IMG/VR virus record: IMGVR_UViG_3300021368_000005
Coordinates: 1-64,000 of that record
Direction: 5' to 3' (one strand)
DNA: 64,000 nucleotides
Source: a virus
The translations under genes were made by a program, and so were the position numbers. A model generated the notes under the pieces. The model was not told where the DNA came from, ran no database searches, and saw only the letters and a program-made list of their open reading frames with translations. How positions within the stretch are numbered: the first letter of the stretch is position 1; the number at the start of each line of letters is the position of its first letter. Shown here one piece after another: positions 43,274 to 62,109 of this stretch.

Positions 43274-43601
43274 ATTGTGCTGTCATTCCATCATAGGATT
43301 CAAACCTATAATATACTGTTAATTCTTCTCCTGCCTTTATTGGTCTTATAGAGTGTAATGTTCTTTCTTCTGTATTGGTACTGATATAACAATTAGGATT
43401 TTCACTATGATTGATAAATCCACCAAGAGGAGTTCGTACCCATTCTCTTCTTGTGGTAGAAACTGCAAATACATGAGTTTCACCAAATACTTCTCCAGCT
43501 GAGAAATCTCTTTCTGCAGTTAACCCTAAACCCTCAATTGCACTTCCCATTATTGTTAACCCTTCTGGCAATGGTCTATATGTATCTTCGAATTGTTTCA
43601 T
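43266..43601 (-). CDS. SET-domain protein (lysine methyltransferase fold)
   Basis: 111 residues with the SET core: GGFINHSENPNC (60-71; family NHSxxPN) and IKAGEELTVYY (88-98; family GEELxxxY), and an N-terminal strand set (TAERDFSAGEVFGE). SET enzymes transfer methyl from SAM to protein lysines; those of bacteria and phages have few known targets. It lies in one overlapping operon with the helicase, thyA and metK, which would supply SAM. It has no extra domains, so it may be a minimal catalytic unit. Confidence 0.88.
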   Translation of the reverse strand: MKQFEDTYRPLPEGLTIMGSAIEGLGLTAERDFSAGEVFGETHVFAVSTTRREWVRTPLGGFINHSENPNCYISTNTEERTLHSIRPIKAGEELTVYYRFESYDGMTAQYE

Positions 43602-47459: not shown

Positions 47460-48692
47460 TTAGTAAGTTTTTGTAGTAAAATCGTCAGGATAACCTTCTT
47501 TTAACTTATCAAGCTGTCCTTGAGAACCACCAGCATGATTTAACCAGTACTCAATTGCCTGCCTATTGTTAATCCATCTTTCTTTTTTTGACCAATCAAA
47601 CCATGGGTGAAACCAATATGCTTTACCTTTATATGATTGTTTCCATCCATCGGTTTCGTAATATTTTCTAAGTTCCTCTTGTGATATCTGACCATCTCCA
47701 TCCAAGTCAGCTTCTCTTTCTTCATCTGATATTATACCATCGCCATCAATATCTAAATCAGATTCATCAATAGAATCTTCCCATTCTTCATCTTCTAAAC
47801 CATCTCCTAAAGTATTATCCCATAAATCATCTTCTTCATCTTCCTCAGGTACTTCATCATATAACTCTCTCTTACGAATTACTTTTTCTTTTTTAACAAC
47901 ACCTCTATCAATTAATACAGCGTTGTTAAAAGCAATTACAAGTGCAACCGCCAATGGGTCAAATACAAATATAATAATTAAGATAAACCAATTGATAATT
48001 TGGTCCATGGGTTTATCTAACAATCCACTAAGATATTGTAGAGGTCCTAATTCGGATGATACTCCCTCCATTGATTCAACATCTAATATTTTTATTTGAA
48101 TAGATTGTAGTGAATCTGCCGCTACTTCTCTTTTCGCTTGAACACCTTTACGATTTTCTTCCTCCACTCCAATACGTTGTTGAGCCAATCTAAGTTCAGT
48201 AGTGGAGATTGTGTTTCTAACGCCCCCAACCACCGAGGTGTCTCGTACTTGGATTGAGGAACTCCTTGCATTACTGAGAGTACTAATGTTATTACTAATT
48301 CTTTCAAGTTCTTCATCATAACGTGCTAAATCATCAGCCCAAAACTTTTCTTTCTGTTGTAAGAAAGCCAATTGTTTTTCTTTTATGTTGAATTGGTTAA
48401 ATGTATCTTGGAATGCCGATGTTAAGAATCCATAGATACCCAATGATGTTATAAGGATTAAAATAATAACTGCTCCACTTAGATACAATCTAAACGCTTT
48501 ATTTATTTTATCCCAATAGTTGTAAAGATATCCAGCGGTAATAAGTTTAGCAGCTTCTAATGAACTTGCCATGATTATTACAGATAATGAAGCACCAGCA
48601 AATAGTTTAGATAAACCACTAACTGAAAAGAACGCCGCATTAAATGCCACGAATAAAGCCGATAATCCTAATAATAAAGTTCTGAATTTCAT
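47460..48692 (-). CDS. Membrane protein with coiled coil and EF-hand-like calcium loops
   Basis: 410 residues. Three N-terminal membrane helices (up to ~90), a coiled coil (~95-210), a fourth helix (WFILIIIFVFDPLAVALVIA, ~235-255) and an acidic tail. The tail holds two calcium-type loops, DIDGDGIISDEE and DLDGDGQISQEE (~311-335), as in EF-hand or dockerin motifs, then an aromatic C terminus. Similar N-terminal regions occur in T4-like phage membrane proteins. It may sense Ca2+ or take part in envelope remodelling; both are guesses. Confidence 0.78.
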   Translation of the reverse strand: MKFRTLLLGLSALFVAFNAAFFSVSGLSKLFAGASLSVIIMASSLEAAKLITAGYLYNYWDKINKAFRLYLSGAVIILILITSLGIYGFLTSAFQDTFNQFNIKEKQLAFLQQKEKFWADDLARYDEELERISNNISTLSNARSSSIQVRDTSVVGGVRNTISTTELRLAQQRIGVEEENRKGVQAKREVAADSLQSIQIKILDVESMEGVSSELGPLQYLSGLLDKPMDQIINWFILIIIFVFDPLAVALVIAFNNAVLIDRGVVKKEKVIRKRELYDEVPEEDEEDDLWDNTLGDGLEDEEWEDSIDESDLDIDGDGIISDEEREADLDGDGQISQEELRKYYETDGWKQSYKGKAYWFHPWFDWSKKERWINNRQAIEYWLNHAGGSQGQLDKLKEGYPDDFTTKTY

Positions 48693-48925: not shown

Positions 48926-49660
48926 TTATAAATAATGTATCCTTGAACCTAACGATACTCTTTTATAATTTTTAGGTACATCTTGTGTCATGCTGTGCCA
49001 AGCATCATAGGTATTTGAGTGTAATACTGTAATTCCATTTTGGAATGGAATTGATTTTACTTTATTAAACATATGTTTTCTATGGGTAAATGCATTACAT
49101 GGATGTTCATATGGTAACTCAGAAGGTATAAATGCATCTTCGTAAATATCATTACCAATGTGTTTATAAAAACTAGTACCAATATCTGTGTAATCGTTTG
49201 TTGGTGGTACATAAGTTTGCATAGTTACAACAGGATAAGGTATTTTACTTTTATAATCCGCACCACCTGGATGTAAAAAATCTATATGTATATCGGTTGC
49301 GTCCCCACCTGTTTTGAAAGTATCTTCCCAAATATAAGTTGTAAATTCACCAAGTTCTTTAGTTTGTTCTTGATGTAGTTCTAGATTAAACTTTTCTAGT
49401 ATAATTTTTTTTATTTCCCCCTTTTTCTCAAATGCATTCATATGAATACCATCAATAGTATCCTCGTAATACGAATCAGTAAATTTAATAGGAGAAGAGG
49501 CTCTTCCATTAAATGAGTCACTTTGTTCAATATGAAACTTAGTATAATCTATATGATAGCCCAAGTCTAAAATCATATGAGGAAATGGTTCTGATAAAAC
49601 CTCAGCAACTTTTAGTTTTTCTAATACTGTATTCAAATATAAGTGATAATAATCATTCAT
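48926..49660 (-). CDS. 2OG-Fe(II) oxygenase-like protein A
   Basis: 244 residues. WEDT (111-114) is followed by the iron-binding HxD as IHIDF (His125, Asp127); the distal His lies in AWHSM (~222) and an Arg in KRVSLGSRIHYL could hold 2-oxoglutarate. The fold predicted is the double-stranded beta helix of this superfamily, which hydroxylates proteins, nucleic acids or small molecules. The next gene shares the WEDT...HIDF block, so the two are paralogues. Substrate unknown. Confidence 0.7.
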   Translation of the reverse strand: MNDYYHLYLNTVLEKLKVAEVLSEPFPHMILDLGYHIDYTKFHIEQSDSFNGRASSPIKFTDSYYEDTIDGIHMNAFEKKGEIKKIILEKFNLELHQEQTKELGEFTTYIWEDTFKTGGDATDIHIDFLHPGGADYKSKIPYPVVTMQTYVPPTNDYTDIGTSFYKHIGNDIYEDAFIPSELPYEHPCNAFTHRKHMFNKVKSIPFQNGITVLHSNTYDAWHSMTQDVPKNYKRVSLGSRIHYL

Positions 49661-49663
49661 GTT

Positions 49664-50488
49664 TTATATTTTTGGATATGATATATACATATGTTTTCTA
49701 ACTATATCTTCTTCGATATCAGGTGAAGAATGATAAGATGTCATATCAGATAACATTGCATATCCTGTATTTAGTTTGAATGGTGCTCTGAATATAAAAT
49801 CACAGTTTTCTTTTCTAAATCCCTCTTCCCAATCTTCAGAGTATTTGTGTGGGTCCCAGTATTCAGTACCATAATCTATCGTAGATTCATCATCAGGTAA
49901 GAATATTCCTAATGTTATATAAAAATCATTGAAATCAATATGTACATCATTAACAGTAAAAGATTGAGTATCTTCCCATAAACTTACACCTGGTGTTCCT
50001 AATTCTACCTTTTCAAATAACTTGTCAACTAATGCACATTTAACATGAATATTATTAATAACATCAGTATAAAGTTCGTTTAGGTATTTATGATTTTTGA
50101 AATCATGGAATTGATATCTACCTGGTGGTTCACCTGTACTCATCTCATCTCGTGATGGCCAATGATTTTGTATATTACTTAACAAGGTTGGTTCAATTAT
50201 ATTATCCAACATTATATGTTTAGATGGATATACCTTTAACTCAGAATCTTGTATTGATTGAAGAGCATGTTCTGTTACCTTTGATATCTTTATTTCAAAT
50301 CCATCAGGATGGGTTATACTTTCAACCATCCCACCCATTAGTAAAATAGGTAATCTAGGATATCTTGGTACTTTTCTCTCATCACAATTACAAGAATTCA
50401 TATAACCACACTTAACACACCTAACCCTCGGCCAATCGGGGTCGTATTCTGATGGGTGGTATGGTATTCCTTCTTTAGTTCTTGCCAT
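49664..50488 (-). CDS. 2OG-Fe(II) oxygenase-like protein B with zinc-ribbon start
   Basis: 274 residues. An N-terminal Cys cluster (CVKCGYMNSCNC, 24-35) looks like a small metal site. The oxygenase part has WEDT, then VNDVHIDFNDF (HxD near 182-184) and a distal His in TSYHSSPD (~252). It shares motif order with protein A, 3 nt downstream, so they are probably a duplicated pair. The cluster's position before a catalytic domain suggests substrate binding. A late-type box lies only 7 nt before the ATG. Confidence 0.68.
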   Translation of the reverse strand: MARTKEGIPYHPSEYDPDWPRVRCVKCGYMNSCNCDERKVPRYPRLPILLMGGMVESITHPDGFEIKISKVTEHALQSIQDSELKVYPSKHIMLDNIIEPTLLSNIQNHWPSRDEMSTGEPPGRYQFHDFKNHKYLNELYTDVINNIHVKCALVDKLFEKVELGTPGVSLWEDTQSFTVNDVHIDFNDFYITLGIFLPDDESTIDYGTEYWDPHKYSEDWEEGFRKENCDFIFRAPFKLNTGYAMLSDMTSYHSSPDIEEDIVRKHMYISYPKI

Positions 50489-50495
50489 TGTATAT

Positions 50496-50505
50496 TATAA
50501 ATATA
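50496..50505 (-). promoter_or_regulatory. Late-type promoter box between hsp20 terminator and oxygenase B
   Basis: The minus strand reads TATATTTATA, right after the T run of the terminator at 50505-50529 and 7 nt before ATG 50488. If used, transcription would start at or within a few bases of the ATG, giving a nearly leaderless message. The start codon could also lie further downstream. Confidence 0.4.
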
Positions 50506-50529
50506 AAAAAAGGGGAATTGCTTCCCCTT
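50505..50529 (-). terminator. Rho-independent terminator after hsp20
   Basis: The minus strand reads AAGGGGAA, loop GCAA, TTCCCCTT and more T. It lies 24 nt past the hsp20 stop, so hsp20 is a single-gene transcript. Confidence 0.9.
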
Positions 50530-50552
50530 CTCTTATTGGCTCAAAATCAAGA

Positions 50553-50924
50553 TTAATATGCAATCTTTAGTGATTTTGCTTTTTTATTGACCTTTTTGTC
50601 AATAAGGAGAGTGAGTAGTCCGTTATCGAACTTAGCAGTTGTTTTTGTACCATCATAATCAGTACCAACTGTTAGTGTTAAATCAATATCTTTAACAAAT
50701 GAAGAAGTATCTTCTGCTTTTTTAGATTTGATTGTAATTTCTTCTTCAGTAACATCTACTGTAATATCTTTTGGATTATGTCCAATAGTGTTAACTGTAA
50801 CTTTTTGTTTTCCATCTTCTAAAGTTTCTGCTTCAAATGATGAATTTAATCTGTTTGTTGTTTTTGTTGTGTAGATATCTCTAAAAAAATTATCTACGAA
50901 GTTTTCATTAATTGTGTAAAACAT
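50553..50924 (-). CDS. Small heat-shock protein (Hsp20/alpha-crystallin)
   Basis: 123 residues. The alpha-crystallin beta sandwich is visible as VTVNTIGHNPKDITVDVTEE, ITIKSKKAE, a loop with DYDGTKTTAKFDNGLLTLLI, and a basic end. Prevents protein aggregation; marine T4-like phages often carry one, possibly for capsid or tail folding. The gene has its own promoter region with two TGACA-N3-TGTCA palindromes (51004-51048) and a strong terminator, so it seems regulated apart from its neighbours. Confidence 0.88.
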   Translation of the reverse strand: MFYTINENFVDNFFRDIYTTKTTNRLNSSFEAETLEDGKQKVTVNTIGHNPKDITVDVTEEEITIKSKKAEDTSSFVKDIDLTLTVGTDYDGTKTTAKFDNGLLTLLIDKKVNKKAKSLKIAY

Positions 50925-51003
50925 AATATTCCTTTTTTTTTAATTAAACATTTACTATCTAATGTACCAAATTTGTACCAATCGATATTTTCATGACATA
51001 AGA

Positions 51004-51048
51004 TGACAGTTTGTCAGTTTTATGAATGTATGTAATGACACTTTGTCA
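51004..51048 (-). promoter_or_regulatory. Paired TGACA-N3-TGTCA palindromes upstream of hsp20
   Basis: TGACAGTTTGTCA (51004-51016) and TGACACTTTGTCA (51036-51048) are perfect 5-bp inverted repeats with 3-nt centres, spaced 32 nt centre to centre, about three helical turns. Closer to the gene is a direct repeat of TTGGTACA (minus strand, about 50962-50980). The arrangement looks like a two-site operator or activator array for hsp20. The second site overlaps the stop of the DNA methyltransferase gene. Confidence 0.65.
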
Positions 51049-52299
51049 TTTTTCAAATATCCAAATAGGTTCTCCAAAAGTTTTATCTTGATTCTCTTCT
51101 GAATTTTTTAGAGTTTCTTCTGAGTATTGATTTTGATTATGTTCTGTATTCTTTACTGTTCCTGCTCCTCCACTATTAGGTCTCTTAGCCATTTCCATAC
51201 CAATACAACCTTTGTAAGTTAATCCTTTTGATATTAAGAAATCTCCCATTGGGTTTGTGATTTCTTTCCAATCTTTACCACCACCCTTTCCACTAGTGAA
51301 TACATCAGCAATATTGATTGCCATTTTACCACCCTTTTTCATAGTTGGTATAATTTTTTCTAATGCCTTGTGTAGGAAATATTCATTCCAAGCATCTATT
51401 GATTTGTATCTTACCCAACTTTGAGTTTCATCATCACCATATCTTTCTACGTTAAAGTAAGGAGGTGATGTAAATACTAAATCAAAGTAATCGTTATATT
51501 CTGAATAATCAAAATCTTCTGCTGGTGATTGGTGAAAGTTTGTTTTAGTTGGTGATTCAAAGAAAGTAGTATGTTTTTGATAAAAATCTCTTTGTTGTTC
51601 ATAGATAGGATGGTTCTCTTTACGAGGGTCTAATCCAACATAATGTTCTATGGTTTCACTTGCAAAGGCTCCACTTAATCTATCGCCCCATCCCATTGAG
51701 AAATCTAACATAGTTTTACTACCTAGATATTCTGTAAGAGCCTTTGTAACATTTGGTTTGTGTTGAGATGCGATATACTTTCTCAAACCAATCATTACTC
51801 TCAATTCTTTTTTACCAACTTGATTTAGTTTCAATGAATAAGCCGCTCCCATTAAAGATATCATAAAGTCCCTCGTTCTCCAAGTTCTTGCTGGACCAGG
51901 ATAACCTGATGAACATATACTCCACCTATTCTTCTCTTGAAAAAAATTAGATGAAAGATTACCTAGATTATATCGTTTGAATAATATTTGTTTATCTTCA
52001 TATGTAAGAGGATATTTAGATTCTCTTGATTTTCTTGGAAACCATTCTTCTTCCTTTAACAACTCATTCCACCTAATACCTTTAAGTTTCATATAATCAT
52101 CTCGTGCATCTTCTATACTGTACTTATCAGTTGCATATGGAAGTGGGTACTTCATAAACAAATCCGCCAACATTTCTTTTACTTGGTCTTTGGGATATGA
52201 TTCTTTTAAGGTTTCCCAATCTTCTGGTGATATAGTAGGATACTCTCCATCGTAATTACCTTTTTCATATTTTCCTAATATATCTTCACCTATATTCAT
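51046..52299 (-). CDS. DNA methyltransferase-like protein with TSPPY motif
   Basis: 417 residues. The catalytic-type motif TSPPYFNVERYG (~275-286) is the SPPY form of N4-cytosine or N6-adenine amino-methyltransferases. A SAM-loop-like stretch LDFSMGWGDRLSG (~198-210) and an acidic VGLDPRK follow the usual order for this class. A ~150-residue N-terminal helical part is of unknown role. No restriction nuclease is next to it, so it may be an orphan that protects phage DNA from host restriction. The substrate base is not certain. Confidence 0.8.
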   Translation of the reverse strand: MNIGEDILGKYEKGNYDGEYPTISPEDWETLKESYPKDQVKEMLADLFMKYPLPYATDKYSIEDARDDYMKLKGIRWNELLKEEEWFPRKSRESKYPLTYEDKQILFKRYNLGNLSSNFFQEKNRWSICSSGYPGPARTWRTRDFMISLMGAAYSLKLNQVGKKELRVMIGLRKYIASQHKPNVTKALTEYLGSKTMLDFSMGWGDRLSGAFASETIEHYVGLDPRKENHPIYEQQRDFYQKHTTFFESPTKTNFHQSPAEDFDYSEYNDYFDLVFTSPPYFNVERYGDDETQSWVRYKSIDAWNEYFLHKALEKIIPTMKKGGKMAINIADVFTSGKGGGKDWKEITNPMGDFLISKGLTYKGCIGMEMAKRPNSGGAGTVKNTEHNQNQYSEETLKNSEENQDKTFGEPIWIFEK

Positions 52300-52628
52300 T
52301 CTTCTATTTCTTGTTTTGTTAGAGCTCTATAAAGTATTTCTACTTCTTCTTCTGAGGTACATATTCCTAAACCATTAAAGTCATTTATCTCAGTATAGAA
52401 CTCTCCTTTCTTTATTTTCAAATCTTGATAATCATCATTATAAGAGGATACCATTATAGGAGCATCAGGGTCAGGATTATCTTTTGGTAAAACAAGCTCA
52501 TAGTAATAATATTCTCCACTATCTCCATCTTCACCTTCGTGTGGTTCTTCTACTTTTTTAACCCACCCCTGTCTTTCAAATGTTTCTTCTGTTATTGGAG
52601 TTAATGGCCAAGGTTCTTCTTTTATCAT
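52296..52628 (-). CDS. Unknown acidic protein (110 residues)
   Basis: Begins MIKEEPWPLTPITEETFERQ, with a strongly acidic middle (EEPHEGEDGDSGEYYYYELV) and a mixed C terminus (EEEVEILYRALTKQEIEE). Aromatic and beta-prone in the centre. 4-nt overlaps on both sides tie it to the lipoprotein and the methyltransferase. A DNA mimic is possible from its charge but nothing else supports this. Confidence 0.65.
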   Translation of the reverse strand: MIKEEPWPLTPITEETFERQGWVKKVEEPHEGEDGDSGEYYYYELVLPKDNPDPDAPIMVSSYNDDYQDLKIKKGEFYTEINDFNGLGICTSEEEVEILYRALTKQEIEE

Positions 52629-53080
52629 TCTAATACTATTTTAATTGTATCTGAAACTAGATGTTCTCGTATCGTACCAGTTAATATAAGAGTATCTCCT
52701 ACCATTGTTTTTACAGGTCCGATTACATTGTTTACTTTACCATCTATAACGTAGGAGGATTGATTAGAAGTACTCACAGAGGTTTCATCTTGTAGATACC
52801 ATTCTAAGTTACTATCCCAACTTACTTTAAGTGGTTCATCTTGGTAGTAATCATATACTCTACCACTAACTCGATGTATCGTTTGGTGTACATCTTGTCT
52901 TAGTTCTAAATGATAATACCCATTATTATCAAGTGGAAGTCTACCATCGAGTTCTAATTTTGGTTCTTCTAATAATATTATATCTTCATCGGGTGTACAT
53001 GATGCTGCTATGAACATCAAAGCCAGTACAATAAATAACATTACATAATCAAAGAATCCTAATCTTTCTTTTTTTCTCAT
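52625..53080 (-). CDS. Lipoprotein with beta-rich domain
   Basis: 151 residues. A basic start, a hydrophobic helix (YVMLFIVLALMFIAASC) and a lipobox with Cys28 point to lipid anchoring in the envelope. The exported part is beta-rich (LELDGRLPLDNNGYYHLELR onwards). It could mask a receptor or act in lysis; no family recognised. Confidence 0.75.
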   Translation of the reverse strand: MRKKERLGFFDYVMLFIVLALMFIAASCTPDEDIILLEEPKLELDGRLPLDNNGYYHLELRQDVHQTIHRVSGRVYDYYQDEPLKVSWDSNLEWYLQDETSVSTSNQSSYVIDGKVNNVIGPVKTMVGDTLILTGTIREHLVSDTIKIVLE

Positions 53081-53562
53081 AAAAGATAATCTAAAATTGA
53101 TTGCCAGTTTGGGAATTTACCTTCTTTACCAGTTTCCCAATTTACACCGAATTGTAATAGTTCACCACTAAACTCACCAGCACCATTCTTAGTTCTATCA
53201 TCAATTAAGTAATCACCCATCAATAAATCTTTTCTGTGAGTAACAAACATCTTTTTGTGGAACAAGTCACCGAAGTAATCTTCTATCCACATTCTCTTAT
53301 CACCAGCCGAACCCGCGTTACCCCAAGGAGCTGAAGTAGCTATGTATAAATCATATTTACCACTTTCATGTAGTTTATTAATCGCCTCAATAGCACCCTC
53401 GATTGGAGGTGGGTTTCTGAATAACCCTTGTATGTGGTCAGGAAACTCCTTGTACCTTTCTACTAAGTGGGGGTGTTTATCAAACCAATCTTGTATTGCC
53501 GCTCCAAAGTCAACAATCACACCATCCATATCAATGTAAACTATTTTTTTCTTATTCACCAT
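53077..53562 (-). CDS. 5'(3')-deoxyribonucleotidase-like HAD phosphatase
   Basis: 161 residues. HAD motif I is DMDGVIVDFG (Asp11 and Asp13). ATSAPWGN is motif II and DYLIDDRTKNG carries the acidic motif IV. Matches the NT5C/YorS group that removes phosphate from deoxynucleoside monophosphates, so likely part of nucleotide recycling or balance. First gene behind a class 1 promoter. Confidence 0.88.
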   Translation of the reverse strand: MVNKKKIVYIDMDGVIVDFGAAIQDWFDKHPHLVERYKEFPDHIQGLFRNPPPIEGAIEAINKLHESGKYDLYIATSAPWGNAGSAGDKRMWIEDYFGDLFHKKMFVTHRKDLLMGDYLIDDRTKNGAGEFSGELLQFGVNWETGKEGKFPNWQSILDYLL

Positions 53563-53578
53563 ATCACTTATTTACAAT

Positions 53579-53611
53579 GTAAATATACGAAAAATATTTG
53601 GATTTACCAAA
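53579..53611 (-). promoter_or_regulatory. Class 1 promoter for the nucleotidase operon
   Basis: TTTGG, then 19 nt, then TATATTTAC on the minus strand, with TTTTTCG before the -7 box and the dyad TTTACATTGTAAA. It lies 17 nt before ATG 53562. Likely transcribes the nucleotidase, lipoprotein, acidic protein and DNA methyltransferase. Confidence 0.88.
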
Positions 53612-53642
53612 TATTTTCGTAACTATTTTTAATAATTTTTGT

Positions 53643-53819
53643 TTAATCTTCTTGGGGTAGGTGAGACCTAAATCCTAATACTGGTACATGACCTGTAATT
53701 TCGATTTCTCTTTTTCTAATAAATTGTTTAGATACTTTTAGGGTTTCTAAATCTGTTTCATTCATTACCCAATCTTTGAAAAGGTAAGTTAACACTTTGG
53801 ATTTAATTGCTTTAATCAT
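53643..53819 (-). CDS. Small basic protein (58 residues)
   Basis: ATG 53819 (MIKAIKSKVLTYLFKDWVMN) to TAA 53645-53643. A helical start and a beta-like end (REIEITGHVPVLGF). It fills the gap between the class 1 promoter and the 65-residue gene, and its size and style match the neighbouring small genes. Confidence 0.6.
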   Translation of the reverse strand: MIKAIKSKVLTYLFKDWVMNETDLETLKVSKQFIRKREIEITGHVPVLGFRSHLPQED

Positions 53820-53837
53820 AATTTAAGTTTTAATTGT

Positions 53838-54035
53838 TTAATAAAAATTGCTCATTGCCGTTTTTAATCCTTCCTTAGTTGCTAAGTGAACTGAATCTAC
53901 CCTTACTACAAGGTTAGGATTATCTTTATATTGTTGTACTGCTAATTTCTTAGCTCCTCGTAGAGTTCTTGCCCAACAAGTATTCCACCCTCCACCTTCA
54001 AAGGTGAACATATATTCTTTTAATTCTAAGCCCAT
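53838..54035 (-). CDS. Unknown small protein (65 residues)
   Basis: Begins MGLELKEYMFTFEGGGWNTC, then WARTLRGAKKLAVQQYKD, a beta hairpin followed by a helix and strands. Part of the small-gene cluster at 53643-54860, where two near-identical class 1 promoters occur. No family recognised. Overlaps the upstream gene by 10 nt. Confidence 0.65.
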   Translation of the reverse strand: MGLELKEYMFTFEGGGWNTCWARTLRGAKKLAVQQYKDNPNLVVRVDSVHLATKEGLKTAMSNFY

Positions 54036-54217
54036 ATTATTTGTGATTTATCGATTAATGTATTTACAGTTCCTAAAAGATTATTACCATAATCTACTTG
54101 TACTCTAACCAAACCATTAAGGTCTTTATCCCAATCGCATTGGTAGTTATCATCTGTAACAATTCCTTCTTGGATTTGTCCGTATTTATTTTCAAATTTA
54201 ATTTTAGTATTTATCAT
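54026..54217 (-). CDS. Unknown small beta-rich protein (63 residues)
   Basis: Begins MINTKIKFENKYGQIQEGIV, with a strand pattern through LNGLVRVQVDYGNNLLGTVN. An SH3-like small barrel is possible. Likely one of several early proteins of unknown target. Confidence 0.62.
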   Translation of the reverse strand: MINTKIKFENKYGQIQEGIVTDDNYQCDWDKDLNGLVRVQVDYGNNLLGTVNTLIDKSQIIWA

Positions 54218-54227
54218 ATTTTAAGTT

Positions 54228-54455
54228 TTATTTTAACCAAAGGTCGTATATGTAATCGTAAGAAGTTTTAAGATTCTCAGCTAACTTAGCAAATAATCTT
54301 TCTCTAACTATACTATCATCAACACCGAAGTAGTTATAAACATCACCTCCGATGAATAGTTCATTTAACAAACCTTCAAAGTTTGCATTTTCATTAATTT
54401 CAACACCCAACTCATCAGTTGGATAGTTTTCTAAATAAAATTCTTTAAGTGTCAT
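54228..54455 (-). CDS. Unknown small acidic helical protein (75 residues)
   Basis: Begins MTLKEFYLENYPTDELGVEI, with an acidic, helical layout ending TSYDYIYDLWLK. First gene behind the class 1 promoter at 54481-54513, so probably an early protein. No known family. Confidence 0.65.
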   Translation of the reverse strand: MTLKEFYLENYPTDELGVEINENANFEGLLNELFIGGDVYNYFGVDDSIVRERLFAKLAENLKTSYDYIYDLWLK

Positions 54456-54480
54456 ATTTTAATTATTAATCATTTACATT

Positions 54481-54513
54481 GTAAATGTACGAAAAAAAGC
54501 CGAGACTGCCAAA
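54481..54513 (-). promoter_or_regulatory. Class 1 promoter of the small-gene cluster
   Basis: TTTGG, then 19 nt, then TACATTTAC, with TTTTTTTCG before the -7 box and the dyad TTTACAATGTAAA. It lies 26 nt before ATG 54455. The spacer GCAGTCTCGGC plus T run is the same as in the promoter at 54877-54909. Confidence 0.87.
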
Positions 54514-54524
54514 TATTTTAACAC

Positions 54525-54638
54525 TTATTTTAGTGTCATTGTTATTAACTCAAACTCTTCATTAGTAATTATACCTTCCATAAGAGCCAAATACTCTTTC
54601 GATACATCTCTACCAGTTATTTTATTTATTATAATCAT
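54525..54638 (-). CDS. Small peptide (37 residues)
   Basis: ATG 54638 (MIIINKITGRDVSKEYLALM) to TAA 54527-54525, 3 nt after the stop of the 72-residue gene. A short strand then helices. It ends just before the -33 box of the next promoter, so the gene and promoter boundaries fit together. Confidence 0.5.
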   Translation of the reverse strand: MIIINKITGRDVSKEYLALMEGIITNEEFELITMTLK

Positions 54639-54641
54639 ATC

Positions 54642-54860
54642 TTATCTATATAAAGTTACAAATAGTCCGAAGTTCTTATCAAATACCTGAATAAGGTTTT
54701 CATAATCACCACTTTTCATTTCGTTAAGAATTTTATTACTATCTAAATCAAGTTGTTTAGCAAGATTCTTAGCAGTTGCCAAAAGGTAAAAAGCATTACC
54801 TTGAGGTCCAGTCAAATCGATTTCGATTCCTTTGTTTTGAGTTTTTTTACTTTTAATCAT
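54642..54860 (-). CDS. Unknown small protein (72 residues)
   Basis: Begins MIKSKKTQNKGIEIDLTGPQ, followed by a helix LLATAKNLAKQLDLDSNKIL and a beta end. The GPQGNAFYLLATA segment is something I recall from small phage proteins of unknown function. Led by its own class 1 promoter. Confidence 0.68.
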   Translation of the reverse strand: MIKSKKTQNKGIEIDLTGPQGNAFYLLATAKNLAKQLDLDSNKILNEMKSGDYENLIQVFDKNFGLFVTLYR

Positions 54861-54876
54861 ATCACTTATTTACATA

Positions 54877-54909
54877 GTAAATATACGAAAAAAAGCCGAG
54901 ACTGCCAAG
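54877..54909 (-). promoter_or_regulatory. Class 1 promoter, near copy of the one at 54481-54513
   Basis: CTTGG, then 19 nt, then TATATTTAC, with the same GCAGTCTCGGC spacer and T run as the promoter 400 nt away, and the dyad TTTACTATGTAAA. It lies 17 nt before ATG 54860. Confidence 0.87.
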
Positions 54910-54930
54910 CAAAAAGTGAATTATTTTTGA

Positions 54931-55992
54931 TTAAATTAGGGTTGTTTTTTCCTCTATAAATTCATGTAAATTATGAAATGTCTGAGGAGCTGGTAAGAAC
55001 TCATTGGCGTGTTTTATAAAGTCTTTGTGATTTTCGTGAGTTGTATCCCACACATTATGTTTATCAAATTCTTGTGGAGTAAAAGTTCCCCAATTATTTA
55101 TCTTACCATAAAACACTTTTGTTTTCTTCTTGAAGATACTCATCATCAAGTCATAGAATATTTTCATTTCCATGTAGTTATGATTCTGAACAACGAATGA
55201 TGTTTTTACACTATTTAGTGTTCTTATTGTAGAAATAAATTTTAGGTTATCAATTAATTCATTCCATTTACCATTTATTCTTGTTTTATTTTCATAAGTA
55301 TCTTTAGTTCCAGCATCAATACTTATTTCACATGATTTGACAAATCTATGTATGTTTGGCATAGAATCCCACATTTTTTTATTCCAATAAGTTGCGTTGG
55401 TATGTAAGTGAATTCTTTCTAATTTAGGATACTTAGATGTATCAAAGTTTCTTAAATAATCTCTAAACCCAACTGATATAAATGGGTCTCCACTTCCTGT
55501 TATGTATATTACTTTTACTGATGAAGCATAATCATCCTCTATTTCTTGGATGGTTGCTTTAACAGTTTTTATTTTATTACTATCGGCAATAAACATTTCA
55601 ATTCTACAAGAAGGACATGCCAAATTACAACTTCTATCAAAAGAAAATTGTATTGTTCTTGGTGCGAATTCTATATCCTTTTTATGTTTATCTACTTTCT
55701 CTTGAACCTCATCTGGTAAGAATCCTTTTCGATATAAAGGTCTGTGTTCTTTTACTCCCTTTGGTATAGCAAGTAAAAATGGACACTGTTGTTTATCACA
55801 GTATTTATAAGAACCATCTATTATAGAATCTCTTATATCTTTAGCAACATCAGAATTAAAAGATTCTCGTGCACTCATACCCTTTGGAAGATGTTTAGTT
55901 AACCAAGAAGGGCAACATAAAAAACTTCTAAAGTCATGTACTTCAATTCCATCAAATGGAACTGCACAAATAAAATCTTTATATTCACTCAT
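54931..55992 (-). CDS. Radical SAM enzyme
   Basis: 353 residues. The iron-sulfur motif CNLACPSC (CxxxCxxC; Cys122, 126, 129) is followed by a glycine-rich stretch YITGSGDPF and IHLHTNATYW. Two further Cys groups near the N terminus (CC at 26-27; CDKQQC at 65-70) could bind a second cluster or zinc. The order resembles SPASM-type peptide-modifying enzymes with an added N-terminal metal site. Uses SAM to form a radical; the substrate is unknown. The start shares a base with the PhoH stop. Confidence 0.88.
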   Translation of the reverse strand: MSEYKDFICAVPFDGIEVHDFRSFLCCPSWLTKHLPKGMSARESFNSDVAKDIRDSIIDGSYKYCDKQQCPFLLAIPKGVKEHRPLYRKGFLPDEVQEKVDKHKKDIEFAPRTIQFSFDRSCNLACPSCRIEMFIADSNKIKTVKATIQEIEDDYASSVKVIYITGSGDPFISVGFRDYLRNFDTSKYPKLERIHLHTNATYWNKKMWDSMPNIHRFVKSCEISIDAGTKDTYENKTRINGKWNELIDNLKFISTIRTLNSVKTSFVVQNHNYMEMKIFYDLMMSIFKKKTKVFYGKINNWGTFTPQEFDKHNVWDTTHENHKDFIKHANEFLPAPQTFHNLHEFIEEKTTLI

Positions 55993-56654
55993 TACGAATA
56001 TTCGTTTAGTAATTTTAATAACTCATCGAGAGCTTCATGTCTATGATTATCTTGTAAAGATACAGAATATACATATTGTGATGATTTGAGTTTTGGTACA
56101 TCATGTACTGCAGAATCATTTGAAAACTTCAAATCTATTTGTTGAGGGTCACCTGTAAGAACCATAGTAGAACCTTTACCCAACCTACCCAATACCATAC
56201 CAAGTTGTTGTTTAGTTAGATTTTGAAACTCATCTACAATCACACAAGCGTTATCAAATGTTCTACCTCTAAAGTGAGATAGTGATACTAACTCAATGTT
56301 TTCATCCGATTCCATCTTCTGTAATATATCAGGTTTGTTATAAACCTTTCTCATATTAGAACGAATCGGTACTAACCAAGGCTCCATCTTTTCATCTAAT
56401 GAACCTGGTAGGTATCCATTATCTTCGTTTGATACTGTTGGTCTTGTTATAATGATTTGATTTATCTGTCTTGTAAAAAACATATCTAATGCAACTTGTA
56501 CCGCTAGTAAGGTTTTTCCACTACCAGCTTTACCCAATATAAAATTATATGGGTGATATAAGATGTTTGCTTTAGCATCTTTTTGTTCTTCTGAAAGAGT
56601 TATTGAAAATTTTATTTTACCTTTTGGTGCCTGTTTACTCATGTTCTGTGCCAT
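55992..56654 (-). CDS. phoH: PhoH-like ATPase
   Basis: 220 residues with Walker A GKAGSGKT (41-48), IITRPTVSNEDNGYLPGSLD (a PhoH hallmark), and Walker B CVIVDEFQN followed by LTGDPQQID. Common in marine phages; often tied to phosphate stress or RNA metabolism, with unclear role. An alternative start at the internal ATG (residue 5) is possible. Overlaps the GNAT-like gene by 20 nt. Confidence 0.94.
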   Translation of the reverse strand: MAQNMSKQAPKGKIKFSITLSEEQKDAKANILYHPYNFILGKAGSGKTLLAVQVALDMFFTRQINQIIITRPTVSNEDNGYLPGSLDEKMEPWLVPIRSNMRKVYNKPDILQKMESDENIELVSLSHFRGRTFDNACVIVDEFQNLTKQQLGMVLGRLGKGSTMVLTGDPQQIDLKFSNDSAVHDVPKLKSSQYVYSVSLQDNHRHEALDELLKLLNEYS

Positions 56655-57189
56655 TTTTTTCCTTTATAAAATTATGATTAGTGAAACCGTTTCTATAACA
56701 TAATTGTGCAGATGCTCGATTCCAATCATCTGAGTAAAGATACATTGTGTCTGTATTCGTTGAATCGAAACTATATTCAAATCCTTGTCTATAAAATATC
56801 ATTGCAGAATTACCTCTATCTGGTTTGTGCTTTCTACTTACCAGAGCTCCTCCAATATAAATTTCATTTTCGTTTATATCCTGATAATGAGATTTCCAAT
56901 CAACAGTTACACAATTAGTATTAGTCCAATGCCATCCTAAACACTTTTCTTCATACATCCATAAATGACATTGTGAACCAAACTCCAACCTTTCATAAAC
57001 TATTTCAGGAGTTGGTGTACCATCCCATTGTAAATCTTCATGGTGATACTCGATTGATTTTTTTATGTGATTTAAGTTTTGGGAAAAGTTATCTGTTGAT
57101 AGTGTATTGAACCAATATCTATTATCAAACTTATGAGGACGTAGATTATGTTTATATAATCTAAATTGAACTATGTTATTTATATTCAT
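56635..57189 (-). CDS. GNAT-like acetyltransferase
   Basis: 184 residues. The C-terminal half looks like the acetyl-CoA part of a GNAT fold: IYIGGALVSRKHKPDRGNSA (motif A-like), then FYRQGFEYSF, then DDWNRASAQLCYRNGF (motif B end). The N-terminal half is rich in His, Asn and Trp. Acceptor unknown. The classic Q/RxxGxG/A loop is imperfect here, so the activity needs proof. A late-type box lies 19 nt before the ATG. Confidence 0.6.
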   Translation of the reverse strand: MNINNIVQFRLYKHNLRPHKFDNRYWFNTLSTDNFSQNLNHIKKSIEYHHEDLQWDGTPTPEIVYERLEFGSQCHLWMYEEKCLGWHWTNTNCVTVDWKSHYQDINENEIYIGGALVSRKHKPDRGNSAMIFYRQGFEYSFDSTNTDTMYLYSDDWNRASAQLCYRNGFTNHNFIKEKNGTEHE

Positions 57190-57208
57190 AAAGTAACTTC
57201 TTTACTAA

Positions 57209-57218
57209 TATAAATATT
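57209..57218 (-). promoter_or_regulatory. Late-type promoter box
   Basis: The minus strand reads AATATTTATA, 19 nt before ATG 57189 in a 43-nt intergenic gap, followed downstream by AAAGAAG as a possible ribosome site. Confidence 0.45.
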
Positions 57219-57232
57219 ATACTATTTTTTTA

Positions 57233-57739
57233 TTATATGATAGAGTTAGTTTTTAGATGTTTTGTTTCATCGAACCACCAAAAAACAGCAACTTCTCTAT
57301 AACCATTTTTTATTTCTCGTACTTCGTGCATATCAGTACCACCATTATAAGTTATATATTCTTTCTTACTTTCAAATGGAACAAATTTATTATTGATATA
57401 AAACTCCCCACCTTCCAATTCAATTGATTCCAACATTATAACAAGAGTAAATGTAGATTTATCATAATGAGCTTTTGTTTTTGCATTTGGAGAATACTGT
57501 ATTTTATGCATTGTTACAATATTATTCTCATCTTGATTAACCAATTCACTAACAAATTTTTTAAGTTCGGTATTATCTAAACTATAATAAGTCATTTTAT
57601 GATGACCACCAACATATCCCTTTGTTTTGTAAACACCAGGTGCTGTTTCTTTTAATTCTTCGTATTCTTTAGGATTAGATATTTTAGCGGAGTTTAACAA
57701 ATCTTTCAATTTGTTATATTCTATATCAGTTAGTTTCAT
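57233..57739 (-). CDS. 2OG-Fe(II) oxygenase-like protein C
   Basis: 168 residues. His91-Tyr-Asp93 and His138 (GTDMHEVREI) fit the iron triad, and Arg148 in NGYREVAVFWWFDE the 2-oxoglutarate site. LEGGEFYIN between them is the usual GGxF turn of small phage oxygenases. Similar in layout to the prolyl-4-hydroxylase-like gene at 60427-60990. Substrate unknown. Confidence 0.78.
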   Translation of the reverse strand: MKLTDIEYNKLKDLLNSAKISNPKEYEELKETAPGVYKTKGYVGGHHKMTYYSLDNTELKKFVSELVNQDENNIVTMHKIQYSPNAKTKAHYDKSTFTLVIMLESIELEGGEFYINNKFVPFESKKEYITYNGGTDMHEVREIKNGYREVAVFWWFDETKHLKTNSII

Positions 57740-57748
57740 TATAAGAAA

Positions 57749-58129
57749 TTAAATTACCTTTTCTCTGTACTTTCCATTTAGAGGAATCCCTCTTCTGATT
57801 GCCTCTAAATCAGATAAGAACCAATCTATATCTGCACACTTTTCGTAGTTTTCTTGTTTTTCAAACCATCGTAGACATATAGTTAGAAATTCTTTGAATT
57901 CTTCATTTGGGATTCTAATAACTGCACCAGCATTTGGATGAATTACCATCACCAATTCTTTTTTACCTAATTTAGAAGCTTTGTGTATTTGAGATGATAT
58001 CTGGTCAAGAACTTCATTTCCTCTAGATTCCAAAAATGTTTTTGCTCTAGGATTCTCGTTTACATCTAAGTATCTTCTCCAATTTACCGTACTAAATGCT
58101 GTTGCTCTTTTCATACAATTACTGTTCAT
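57749..58129 (-). CDS. Unknown protein (126 residues)
   Basis: Opens MNSNCMKRATAFSTVNWRRY; the internal ATG at residue 6 (58114) avoids the 11-nt overlap with the upstream gene and is another possible start. Alpha-beta layout with LVMVIHPNAGAVIRIPNEEF and a Cys/Trp-containing helical end. No family recognised. Confidence 0.65.
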   Translation of the reverse strand: MNSNCMKRATAFSTVNWRRYLDVNENPRAKTFLESRGNEVLDQISSQIHKASKLGKKELVMVIHPNAGAVIRIPNEEFKEFLTICLRWFEKQENYEKCADIDWFLSDLEAIRRGIPLNGKYREKVI

Positions 58130-59030
58130 TAAATGATGTTATTGGAGCATAACTATTTTTTTGGTCTATACCTGTTATAACATCATCAAAGTTTAATCCC
58201 ATTGGTTGGTCATATGATATAACAGAGAATGGTTGAATTCCACTTCCTCCACTTGATGGTGCAATTCTTATAGTATCTCCCTTAACATTATTACTATTAT
58301 CTGATGATTTAATTCTATCAGTTAACTTACCTCTACTACGCGAAAAGAATCCACCTCCTTTACTTTTTGGTGCTGGTCTAGGAACATCTCCCTTCTTAAC
58401 TGTAATTGGTTTCGGTTCTTCTGCTTCCACTTTAATTACAGGTTCAGGTGGTTTGGGTTGTGTAATTGTTGGTGGAGTTGATATAGTAACCGAGGTTGCT
58501 GTTGAAATATCTTCAAATGTTTCAAACTCCAAACCAGGATATTGACCAGAAACATCTAAATCAGGTGAATAACTAGTAGTGAATATACTAAAGCTTCCAA
58601 TACTTTGTGGAGCCAAAACAGTATCAGTTGTGTTTGGATTGAAAAAATCATTTAAGTAAGTTAATACATCGGTTACTGTTGTAATTTTTCTAGTTACAGC
58701 AACTTCCGCATATCTAGTTCGTGTTGTACCACCATGAACAATAACATCGGGTTCTTGTCTAGTTACAGAACCCAATGTAACACTTATAGTTGGTATTGTA
58801 CTTTTAGATATATAAGGGTTACCTAATCTTTTTAGTGAATTTAGATAACCAGCATCTGTGTATGCGGCTCCATTTATTTTTATAATTATTCCATTTAGGT
58901 ATGGATAATTGACACCACTAATCCCTTCAAGTCCATCGTTTCTTACAGACCCTATTGAACCAAGTGGTCCTCTTAATGAGTTTCCACTATATGTTCCATA
59001 CTGATTCGTTATGTCAGATAATGATATCAT
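58119..59030 (-). CDS. Probable virion protein with proline-rich middle (303 residues)
   Basis: Beta-rich, Gly/Ser/Thr-rich N-terminal half (RGPLGSIGSV then GVNYPYLNGIIIKINGAAYT), a linker of PxPP repeats (TQPKPPEPVIKVEAEEPKPI) and a basic, Ser-rich C terminus (GGGFFSRSRGKLTDR). The linker and SRxR end resemble those of the 1850-residue tail protein, so it is likely a virion part although it sits among enzymes. A late-type box overlaps the region just before the ATG. Confidence 0.65.
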   Translation of the reverse strand: MISLSDITNQYGTYSGNSLRGPLGSIGSVRNDGLEGISGVNYPYLNGIIIKINGAAYTDAGYLNSLKRLGNPYISKSTIPTISVTLGSVTRQEPDVIVHGGTTRTRYAEVAVTRKITTVTDVLTYLNDFFNPNTTDTVLAPQSIGSFSIFTTSYSPDLDVSGQYPGLEFETFEDISTATSVTISTPPTITQPKPPEPVIKVEAEEPKPITVKKGDVPRPAPKSKGGGFFSRSRGKLTDRIKSSDNSNNVKGDTIRIAPSSGGSGIQPFSVISYDQPMGLNFDDVITGIDQKNSYAPITSFNEQ

Positions 59031-59035
59031 ATACT

Positions 59036-59045
59036 AATAAATATA
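59036..59045 (-). promoter_or_regulatory. Possible late-type promoter box
   Basis: The minus strand reads TATATTTATT, only 5 nt before ATG 59030. One mismatch to the commonest box and a very short gap make it a weak call. Confidence 0.3.
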
Positions 59046-59056
59046 GGGAAAACTAA

Positions 59057-59215
59057 TTACTTGGTAAGTTCGTGAAAAGCTTTATGAATGGAGTTGTGTG
59101 TATCTAGTGAAGAGTCATCTTCTCTAAATTTTTGTGCAAGTTCCCAGACCTCTGTTCTTATTCCGAGTGAATGGGATTTGTATAGGATTTCTTCTGTGAT
59201 TTTTTCATTTGTCAT
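59057..59215 (-). CDS. Small helical protein (52 residues)
   Basis: ATG 59215 (MTNEKITEEILYKSHSLGIR) to TAA 59059-59057, 2 nt after the dCMP deaminase stop. Acidic and helical, ending IHKAFHELTK. The tight spacing supports a real gene; no family recognised. Confidence 0.62.
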   Translation of the reverse strand: MTNEKITEEILYKSHSLGIRTEVWELAQKFREDDSSLDTHNSIHKAFHELTK

Positions 59216-59217
59216 AA

Positions 59218-59676
59218 CTACATACCTGCAAAAGAATCATCGTAAAATTGTACATTAACTCCTGCCTCCTCTAACATTGACCAACTTCTTTCGTAGTTTT
59301 CTTCCCAATGTGAGCCTTTAGTAGTAACACCTCTTTCACAAAAAATTCTTGTTATACCTGAGTTTATAATTCCTCGTGCACAATCTGAACAAGGGATTCC
59401 ACAACTGAGATACATTGTACAATCTTTGGTTGATACTCCAATTCTTGCTGCATTATAAATAGCATTTCTCTCAGCATGTTCAAACCAAAAATACTTTTCT
59501 GGCCTTTGTTGTCTTTCTTTTTCGTTATCCTTTAATCCTCTTGGAAATGAGTTGTAACCAGTAGATACAATTTCCTTATCCTTACCAACAATGATTGCAC
59601 CGATTTGTGTGTTCTCATCTTTGGATTTAAGTTTGACTGTGTGAGCCAATGTTCTAAAATATTCTACCCATCTCAT
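59218..59676 (-). CDS. Deoxycytidylate deaminase
   Basis: 152 residues. Zinc site HAERNA (His67, Glu69) and CGIPCSDC (Cys96 and Cys99 in PCxxC), with TQIGAIIV and STGYNSFPRG at the front as in T4 gpCd. Converts dCMP to dUMP for the thymidylate synthase. Overlaps the second sulfotransferase by 4 nt. Confidence 0.93.
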   Translation of the reverse strand: MRWVEYFRTLAHTVKLKSKDENTQIGAIIVGKDKEIVSTGYNSFPRGLKDNEKERQQRPEKYFWFEHAERNAIYNAARIGVSTKDCTMYLSCGIPCSDCARGIINSGITRIFCERGVTTKGSHWEENYERSWSMLEEAGVNVQFYDDSFAGM

Positions 59677-60203
59677 ATTATATAACTATCTATGTTTTTA
59701 TTTTTTATTTTATCTACTCTAAGTCTATTATTTGAATTTGTATCAAAAATATCTTCATAATAAGTTATGGGTATTGAGGTTTTTTCAGATAAGGAATTCA
59801 AATATTTATTAGATTCAGTTATGTGATTTAATGCATGCTTAATATTTGGTAATGATTTATATTCATATTTATCATACCAGTTATTTGTCCAAAGAGCGCT
59901 TGCATATGATTCTGAGGCTTCTTTTGTATTTTTTCTTGATAATAAAATTACTTCATCAAATTCTTTTACAAAATCTATTGACCATTCTAGCCATCTATCA
60001 TAATTAATTTTTTTAGAATAAGTGCCATCTTGTCCTACAAGTAATTTAACAACAACATTTTTTTTATCACTAGTATATAAGTTTTTTTCATATGCCCTAT
60101 AACTAAATGGTTCGAATATATGTTCTAAATTTTTTTCAGAAGAAATGGATTTCATTAAAGAAGTAGAGCCAGACCTTGGTACTGATATTATTAATACTTT
60201 CAT
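59673..60203 (-). CDS. Second sulfotransferase-like protein
   Basis: 176 residues. The opening loop VPRSGSTSL (8-16) is the PAPS-binding motif in its PRSGST form, and VILLSRKNTKEASESYASAL near the middle fits the 3'-phosphate site. Short compared with typical enzymes (about 250-300 residues). Different from the PKTGGTS-type enzyme at 14592-15164, so the phage has two families. Substrate unknown. Confidence 0.75.
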   Translation of the reverse strand: MKVLIISVPRSGSTSLMKSISSEKNLEHIFEPFSYRAYEKNLYTSDKKNVVVKLLVGQDGTYSKKINYDRWLEWSIDFVKEFDEVILLSRKNTKEASESYASALWTNNWYDKYEYKSLPNIKHALNHITESNKYLNSLSEKTSIPITYYEDIFDTNSNNRLRVDKIKNKNIDSYII

Positions 60204-60211
60204 ATATATAA

Positions 60212-60427
60212 CTATATTAGTTTAACTATTTCAGCATCTTCTATTTCATTACAAAAGATAAATAAGTTTAATCTGTTAGATTTGAATACGATATCACACC
60301 CCAACCACTCCTTTACTGCCTGTGCATTTAGAACTCGTGTTATTGGATATCTAGCTACAATTTGATATGGGGTTTGGTTTATATATTCTATGGGACCACA
60401 TTTATCAGGATACCTACCAGTTCTCAT
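60212..60427 (-). CDS. Unknown small protein (71 residues)
   Basis: Begins [20 protein letters not shown], mixed alpha/beta with VKEWLGCDIVFKSNRLNLFI. Shares a base with the stop of the hydroxylase upstream. Possibly one functional unit with it; no family recognised. Confidence 0.62.
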   Translation of the reverse strand: MRTGRYPDKCGPIEYINQTPYQIVARYPITRVLNAQAVKEWLGCDIVFKSNRLNLFIFCNEIEDAEIVKLI

Positions 60428-60990
60428 TACACAAATTTATTTTCACGAACCCATACAATTAATATCCACTTTTCACCTTTAGTAACAGGTAAACCAGCAT
60501 GTTCTGATTCGGCTATCCCCATTCCATTTTCATAATTTAACCAACATATAGCTTTTCCTAATTCTGGTTTAACTACTTTTTTTAGTTGAGGAAACTCAGT
60601 TGCACCACCTTCAAAATCATCATTTAAGTAAACTAAAAAAGAATGTGTTCTATTTCCAGATTCACCGATTTCAACGTTCTCATCAACACTATCTTTAGAA
60701 AAAAAATCATGATGAATTTTATACTCACCCCCCACATCATATTTTACGATATGAAGTTCTTCTTGATTTTCAATTGGGGTTTGTGTCAAATAAGATACTT
60801 GTTTTTTTATTTCATCTAAATAAGGTGAATCTATATCACCCAACCAACAAGAGTTAGCAACTCTATATCCTTCTATTTCCTCACCAACAGTACCAGCCTC
60901 TTCTAACTTAGTTGATGCAAGTCCAATTAAGAAGTCACACCATTGTTTAGAAAAAAACTTAGGATACTGTACTAATATGTTAGATTCCAT
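60427..60990 (-). CDS. 2OG-Fe(II) oxygenase D, prolyl-4-hydroxylase-like
   Basis: 187 residues with the P4H order: [14 protein letters not shown] (His93 and Asp95 of HxD), [31 protein letters not shown], and [20 protein letters not shown] (His164 and Lys174, the latter expected to bind 2-oxoglutarate). Strongest of the four oxygenase calls. Phage P4H-like enzymes have uncertain targets, perhaps collagen-like or proline-rich virion proteins, both of which occur in this window. Confidence 0.9.
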
Positions 60991-61567: not shown

Positions 61568-61639
61568 TAGCCCCTAGGAGAATCGAACTCCTCTTTCCAG
61601 GATGAAAACCTGGCGTCCTAACCGATAGACGAAGGGGCC
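61568..61639 (-). tRNA. tRNA-Glu (TTC)
   Basis: Acceptor GGCCCCT/AGGGGCT with one G-T pair, D arm with GGTTAGGAC, anticodon arm CCAGG-TTTTCAT-CCTGG (anticodon TTC), T loop GTTCGATTC. Its 5' 22 nt overlap the 3' end of the membrane protein gene at 61618-62109. Confidence 0.92.
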
Positions 61640-62109
61640 AAAATTTTCTTCTCAACTGATTGAAAAGAAAACTTAAGTAGGTAACTGAAAAACAAATCAC
61701 CTAATATAGAGTTTATAAAGAAGGGTAATGCCATTGTATAACAAAGTAAAAACCCTTCCAATGTTTTAGGGTAACCACCTAACCAAACTCCAAAGTTGGT
61801 GATTATGAAAAATATTAGAGATGATATTAGTACGTTGTGTACTTTTATTTTTTTCCAATATCTACCCAATAAACTTATTAATAAAAAAGAACCATAAACC
61901 CATAGTGTAATTCCATAGAATCCTAAATAGATATCTGATAGAACCATTGCTATAAGTGGTAGGGATATTCCCAACCATTTGTTCTTGAAATTTGTTGAAC
62001 CAAATAAAGCCAATGCTGTGATTGGTGTAAAGTTTGGTGGATGTGGTAATAATCTTACTAACACAGCCACAACAACAAATCCAATAAGTAATAGTTCTCT
62101 TTTATTCAT
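61618..62109 (-). CDS. Multi-pass membrane protein, DUF6580/ECF S-component-like
   Basis: 163 residues with about five membrane helices. The N-terminal pattern RLLPHPPNFTPITALALFGS, then LPLIAMVLSDIYLGFYG is that of a widespread bacterial membrane family (DUF6580), thought related to ECF transporter substrate-binding parts. The stop lies inside the tRNA-Glu gene. A phage copy may aid uptake of a cofactor, but this is inference. Confidence 0.75.
   Translation of the reverse strand: MNKRELLLIGFVVVAVLVRLLPHPPNFTPITALALFGSTNFKNKWLGISLPLIAMVLSDIYLGFYGITLWVYGSFLLISLLGRYWKKIKVHNVLISSLIFFIITNFGVWLGGYPKTLEGFLLCYTMALPFFINSILGDLFFSYLLKFSFQSVEKKILAPSSIG

Follow-up and report, generated by a model that had tools for sequence, protein, structure and literature searches.

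Oxygenase-like genes of the window

The window, bases 1-64000 of the 73,613-base IMG/VR record IMGVR_UViG_3300021368_000005, derives from an uncultured marine virus of bacteria. Two adjacent genes on its minus strand, here termed P2 and P1, encode proteins that belong, by predicted fold and by conserved HxD...H and Arg residues, to the Fe(II)/2-oxoglutarate (2OG) dioxygenase superfamily. P2, the first gene of the pair (49664..50488), encodes 274 amino acids (aa) with HID at residues 183-185, H253 and R264; its double-stranded beta-helix (DSBH) domain comprises residues 67-274, and the N-terminal segment (residues 1-60) carries a Cys cluster. P1, the second gene (48926..49660), encodes 244 aa with HID at residues 125-127, H222 and R234/R240. 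Together with two further genes, P3 and P4, they had been described in the initial annotation as four 2OG-Fe(II) oxygenase-like genes. All four open reading frames (ORFs) are present, all on the minus strand, and in each the HxD motif and a distal His occur in the right order. Counting this motif was rejected as evidence for the four genes, given that its occurrence is at chance level: the pattern HxD/E...H...R/K was found in 13 of the 47 ORFs that are 130 aa or longer, against 11.9 expected in shuffled proteins, and a stricter form in 5 ORFs against 2.7 expected, also matching the thymidylate synthase, the carbamoyltransferase and the GNAT-like protein. The assignment nevertheless holds on other grounds, clearly for P4 and weakly for P3 by profile, and for P1 and P2 by predicted fold.

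No relevant family match was found for P1 or P2 in Pfam, PHROGs or NCBIfam, PF13640 matched none of the 24 scanned members of P1, P2 and their relatives, and PDB sequence profiles of P1 and P2 gave no match to any 2OG protein hydroxylase. AlphaFold2 models of both proteins were built from alignments of viral relatives and compared with PDB structures, matches within 1 Z being counted as ties. Structure prediction had been suggested as a check in the initial annotation, and both models adopted a DSBH, with Z scores of up to 13.4 for P1 and 19.9 for P2. The mean predicted local distance difference test (pLDDT) score was 76.6 for P1 and 78.5 for P2, residues 71-274 of the latter lying in blocks of 81-96. 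P2 was matched to PasI (Z 19.9, root-mean-square deviation (rmsd) 5.1, 194 residues), PolD (Z 18.8, rmsd 2.6, 188 residues), Tpa1 (Z 18.8, rmsd 2.6, 194 residues), OGFOD1 (Z 18.7, rmsd 2.4, 187 residues) and the prolyl 4-hydroxylase (P4H) of P. putida (Z 16.8, rmsd 2.8, 172 residues). P1 was matched to OGFOD1 (Z 13.4, rmsd 3.4, 181 residues), PasI (Z 13.1, rmsd 3.7, 180 residues) and the P. putida P4H (Z 12.3, rmsd 3.3, 166 residues). The iron triad (H, D, H) and the Arg were invariant in 11 relatives of P1 and in 13 relatives of P2. The two proteins were also correctly called adjacent paralogues, as they share 25% identity (pairwise E 2e-4) and reciprocal profile matches of about 1e-10 to 1e-20. 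All four oxygenase genes are under purifying selection, with ratios of nonsynonymous to synonymous substitution rates (dN/dS) of 0.02-0.25 against the closest relative (0.25 for P1, 0.14 for P2); P1 evolves faster than P2.

The P2-P1 tandem and its upstream motifs

To follow the pair among viruses, 2.9 million viral contigs were searched by pattern and profile, starting separately from the WEDT...HxD motif, P2, P1 and the P2 N terminus. P2 was present in 33 viral contigs besides the window. Two of them stop within P2, and in each of the other 31 the next gene is P1; in one additional contig (L109) the P2 frame is broken. Two lineages were distinguished. In that of the window the pair lies between hsp20 and the gene of a 410-aa protein, and P2 and P1 are separated by a gap of 3 nucleotides (nt); in the other, gp43-linked lineage it adjoins the DNA polymerase gene, and the two frames share an almost invariable overlap of 26 nt in the loci listed. 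Whereas Tpa1/OGFOD1 has two DSBH units in one chain, the window and the relatives encode P1 and P2 as separate ORFs. Because the strict tandem order is kept at two unrelated genome positions, the pair behaves as one unit, although the loci within the gp43-linked lineage are not independent, given their common ancestry. In a tree of 32 rows, all P1 sequences (15 rows) formed one group and all P2 sequences (16 rows) another, with support of 99/97; the duplication is therefore older than the split between the two lineages.

No relative of P1 or P2 came up when 84,980 genomes of bacteria and archaea were covered by two pattern-based scans, which reach only relatives sharing the patterns. Sequences of P1 and P2 from the window or the gp43-linked lineage, run by tblastn against 50,697 phage records, returned nothing, and seven representative phage genomes yielded no profile match, whereas the P2 profile search recovered 12 of 12 known carriers. 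A more distant single-gene relative (G005, L082:2527-3126), 2OG-like with WEDT...HVD...HSS, indicates that the superfamily of P1 and P2 also has unpaired members. The P2-P1 pair is thus an unnamed new branch of 2OG oxygenases, so far known only from viruses, dozens of them marine.

The Cys-rich N terminus that the initial annotation had noted in one of the proteins is real and belongs to P2. Residues 1-60 (50309..50488, minus strand) form a conserved Pro-rich segment with C24-x2-C27-x5-C33-x-C35, the consensus among relatives being C-x2-C-x5-C-x-[CH], usually Cys/Cys/Cys/His. When the window P2 was compared with P2 of the other lineage, identity was 57-71% over residues 1-60, 25-34% over residues 61-165 and 37-43% over residues 166-274, so that the N-terminal segment is the best conserved part between lineages, yet it is modelled at low confidence. 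No other architecture was found for this segment, each match being either a full P2 or one truncated by the end of its contig or by a frame break. The Cys cluster looks like a zinc site, and P2 may use its N terminus to dock P1 or the substrate. The cluster is complete in the window and most relatives; the fourth ligand is absent in L060 and L119, and all four are gone together in L003, whose P2 is 91% identical to that of the window and in which the TGT Cys codons are replaced by GGC, TCC, TCT and TTT while the rest is kept.

The region before P2 (50489..50545, minus strand) contains a terminator-like hairpin (GGGGAAGCAATTCCCC and a T run) and then TATTTATA at 50496-50503, a motif common to structural genes. 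On the coding strand of the window, TATTTATA was observed before 9 of the 28 gene starts that have free space upstream, against 0.3 expected; the nine include P2, the tail fibre gene and other tail-region genes, and the copy before P2 is unchanged in L003. In the gp43-linked lineage, GATAAATA, which is close to the T4 late promoter TATAAAT (PMC3037559), was found 33-58 nt before the P2-P1 operon in 11 of 12 loci and, in 4 loci, also before the neighbouring structural gene, which matches the PHROG 'structural protein'; upstream regions of these loci hold 22 copies against 1.25 expected. Motifs of putative late-promoter type thus precede the pair in both lineages. The T4-type TATAAATA was considered as a window late promoter and rejected (20 copies against 14.5 expected, not significant, with most copies on the opposite strand). 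The gene starts at 63957, 54860, 54455, 53562, 47394, 41092 and 39220, mainly of non-structural genes, are preceded by another motif, TTTTCGTATATTTAC, with seven upstream copies of TTTTCGTA against 0.18 expected; this suggests a promoter class, early or middle, that differs from TATTTATA.

Other modification genes, neighbours and proposed targets

The record looks like a fragment of a T4-like myovirus, judging from gp25, baseplate genes, a tail fibre, PhoH and gp46/47-like genes. Its baseplate wedge protein is nearest (36-39% identity) to those of Microcystis phage Mel-JY01, an uncultured phage and Flavobacterium phage immuto, and no DNA-level relative of bases 40000-64000 was found among 50,697 phage records. 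Just upstream of P2, outside the pair, lies the Hsp20 gene (50553..50924, minus strand; PF00011, E 5e-8), whose synonymous divergence (dS) from L003 is 0.05, compared with 0.2-0.9 for neighbouring genes, which suggests that hsp20 was recently exchanged. Downstream of P1, the 410-aa protein (47460..48692, minus strand) has a hydrophobic membrane-type N terminus and an EF-hand-like match only. At 61618-62109, a DUF6580 membrane-type protein gene (PF20221, 4.8e-49) adjoins and slightly overlaps a tRNA-Glu gene in a small tRNA cluster.

P3 (57233..57739, minus strand) encodes a 168-aa PiuC/P4H-like 2OG-Fe(II) oxygenase with HYD...H. Its match to PF13640 (E 0.0044, residues 80-155) scored 18.4 bits and did not reach the curated cut-off of 27; it also matched phrog_61 (E 8e-4) and, weakly by tblastn, an annotated Pseudomonas phage 2OG-Fe(II) oxygenase, and its dN/dS of 0.023 is the lowest among the 16 genes compared. 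P4 (60427..60990, minus strand), a 187-aa P4H-type 2OG-Fe(II) oxygenase with HHD...H, matched PF13640 at 55.3 bits (E 1.4e-14), above the same cut-off, and phrog_61 (1.6e-24), and is 40% identical to the 'prolyl 4-hydroxylase' of Microcystis phage Mel-JY01. A fifth 2OG-like gene lies outside the window (record 71599-72225; PF13640, E 0.013; NCBIfam FlmC family, E 5e-4), so that the record holds at least five. P3 and P4 have no link to the P2-P1 pair; both are phage oxygenases of the usual P4H/PiuC type and, like the accessory genes, nothing unusual in a marine T4-like virus.

The accessory genes include a radical S-adenosylmethionine (SAM), twitch-domain-like gene (54931..55992, minus strand; NF033640, E 1.3e-20, below its cut-off; PF04055, 2.9e-6) in an operon with PhoH and a GNAT-like gene, a TobZ/NodU-type O-carbamoyltransferase gene (35878..37584, minus strand; PF02543, 8.6e-73; PF16861, 6.8e-64), a small SET-domain protein gene (43266-43601; PF00856, 1.4e-11), possibly for a protein lysine methyltransferase, and, outside the window, a flavin-dependent tryptophan halogenase gene (record 67611-68801, L004:7611-8801; PF04820, 3.9e-65). 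The halogenase is closest among phages to that of Pelagibacter phage HTVC008M (31.5%). Glycosyltransferases, sulfotransferases, a dCMP deaminase-like gene and a DNA methyltransferase are also encoded. In the initial annotation such genes were read, together with the oxygenases, as a modification toolkit; the listed genes are real, but they do not form one linked unit with the pair. The pair-bearing records of other lineages, which are fragments and include 119- and 217-kilobase contigs, largely lack PF13640 (P4-type) and carbamoyltransferase genes; P3 was not found in them either, in a search with no positive control in that set. The exception is a 340-kilobase record, in which PF13640 and carbamoyltransferase genes each occur once; of nine other pair-bearing records, only one had the carbamoyltransferase.

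Three targets had been proposed for the toolkit, namely tail proteins, DNA and host glycans. The first is the best supported, through the late-type motifs in two lineages and a Pro-rich tail-region protein of 747 aa (24382-26625) with 11 consecutive Pro, whereas the collagen-like stretches were overstated, the tail fibre having at most 5 GXY triplets. The C-terminal stretch of the same tail-region protein reads like a Hint/intein-type domain (CLVADTKIETADG...ILTHN), with a weak BACON match only in Pfam. For host glycans, glycosyltransferases and sulfotransferases are present without linkage to the pair. The DNA target is without support. A carbamoyltransferase/thymidylate synthase-type neighbourhood has been described around the 5-hydroxymethylcytosine carbamoyltransferase, and Asn in the LPFNIASY motif of thymidylate synthase has been tied to dUMP and unmodified contigs (MetaGPA, PMC8670742). 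The thymidylate synthase homologue of the window (42383-43273) keeps this Asn, which leaves DNA hypermodification unsupported; Asp at position 177, associated with dCMP use, was not found, the position being equated by motif without formal alignment. Among the polymerase-linked relatives, several contigs (L058:1-1268, L069:1-1236 and others) encode a protein with VGDSGGFQIGKG that resembles, by eye only, tRNA-guanine transglycosylase/DpdA and could be a hint of deazaguanine in the DNA of these viruses.

Proposed function of the pair and known systems

P2 and P1 may be two partner hydroxylases that act late, as a two-subunit enzyme, on a virion protein, a reading that we put forward tentatively and hold to be somewhat short of probable. 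As sister 2OG-Fe(II) dioxygenases, they would be produced from one operon late in infection, each binding Fe(II) via the HxD...H triad and 2-oxoglutarate via the Arg. They would most likely assemble as a two-subunit hydroxylase, with the Cys-containing N terminus of P2, which would bind zinc, docking P1 or the substrate. The pair would then hydroxylate residues, possibly prolines, of a virion or other late protein, rather than a small molecule. In favour of this reading are the nearest structures, which include the protein prolyl hydroxylases Tpa1/OGFOD1 and the P. putida P4H, the invariance of H, D, H and R in both families, the strict tandem order at two unrelated genome positions, the duplication before the lineages diverged and the late-type motifs. 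Several points weigh against it. PasI and PolD, the best structural matches of P2, act on small nucleoside-like molecules and tie with the protein hydroxylases, so the fold is compatible with either kind of substrate, and P1 and P2 might have separate ones. The presumed zinc site is not essential in all viruses, since L003 has lost all four Cys. The case for TATTTATA at P2 is weakened by its partial overlap with the terminator T run and its position 7 nt from the ATG, and the motif is not limited to structural genes, given that it also stands before the GNAT/radical SAM/PhoH operon (before 57189). Finally, common descent accounts for the structural neighbours within the gp43-linked lineage.

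The main rivals of late action on a virion protein are a small-molecule or glycan role and a host protein as the substrate. The two enzymes might, sequentially or jointly, modify a small molecule or the precursor of a glycan, such as a sugar nucleotide for the viral glycosyltransferases and sulfotransferases; PasI (Z 19.9) and PolD (18.8) head the matches of P2 and are near the top for P1, and glycosyltransferases, sulfotransferases and a carbamoyltransferase are encoded in the record. Z scores to protein hydroxylases are, however, tied or close, and the sugar-modification genes are unlinked to the pair, including the carbamoyltransferase with its single occurrence among the nine other pair-bearing records, so that we consider this role possible though fairly improbable. 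Hydroxylation of EF-Tu, a ribosomal protein or another host protein, which would shift host translation, appears unlikely: Tpa1/OGFOD1, the Rps23 prolyl hydroxylase (Z 18-19), and the EF-Tu-binding P4H (16.5-16.8) are close to P2, but a substrate does not follow from fold similarity, and late-type promoters suit virion or lysis-phase targets better than host takeover.

A role in DNA modification or repair has been suggested for cyanophage 2OG oxygenases (PMC3037559), and the record encodes, besides the carbamoyltransferase and the thymidylate synthase homologue, a dCMP deaminase-like protein and a DNA methyltransferase, a gene set like the neighbourhood described in PMC8670742. That the oxygenases serve DNA base modification or repair is nonetheless very improbable, considering the Asn in LPFNIASY, the absence of the carbamoyltransferase from most pair-bearing relatives and the rank of DNA-repair dioxygenases below PasI and OGFOD1 in the Foldseek list of P1. 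The second DSBH of the two-domain Tpa1/OGFOD1 is regarded as non-catalytic. By analogy, one viral partner might be the sole working enzyme and the other a helper domain, which would accord with the strict pairing of the paralogues and the faster evolution of P1; as both keep the complete H, D, H and R across highly diverged relatives, this is about as unlikely as a host target. The stronger form of the preferred reading, in which a virus-specific enzyme of two mutually dependent, catalytically complete paralogous subunits hydroxylates virion proteins late in infection, would represent a class of phage post-translational modification undescribed in the literature searched, and we regard it as rather doubtful.

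Few unexplained accessory genes are as common in marine phages as those for 2OG oxygenases. These were reported in 76 of 153 cyanophage genomes, against 20 of 153 for halogenases (PMC10452541), and were found to be seasonally enriched (PMC11561400), while no phage substrate of a 2OG oxygenase was found in the literature searched. A strictly paired, late-type, virus-only cassette is a sharply testable case for phage 2OG hydroxylation, and the pair would be evidence that the viral 2OG repertoire is incompletely covered by current family libraries.

Among known systems, the phage oxygenases of phrog_61/PF13640 (T4-GC 240, cyanophage PiuC), whose genes adjoin tail genes in P-SSM4 and ACG-2014f, include P4 and probably P3, whereas P1 and P2 match neither family. 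PasI and PolD, 2OG enzymes of nucleoside-type natural product pathways, are of similar size and give the highest structural scores for P2, but the viral pair has no biosynthetic cluster nearby and its enzymes are an inseparable tandem. With Tpa1/OGFOD1 (the uS12 prolyl hydroxylase) identity is 10-14%, the Cys-containing N terminus of P2 lies outside the matched region, and the viral units, both of which keep the iron triad, are encoded by two genes rather than in one chain. Shared with it are the DSBH with HxD...H...R (Z 18-19 over ∼190 residues for P2 and 12-13 for P1) and, as proposed for the viral pair, two DSBH units working together.

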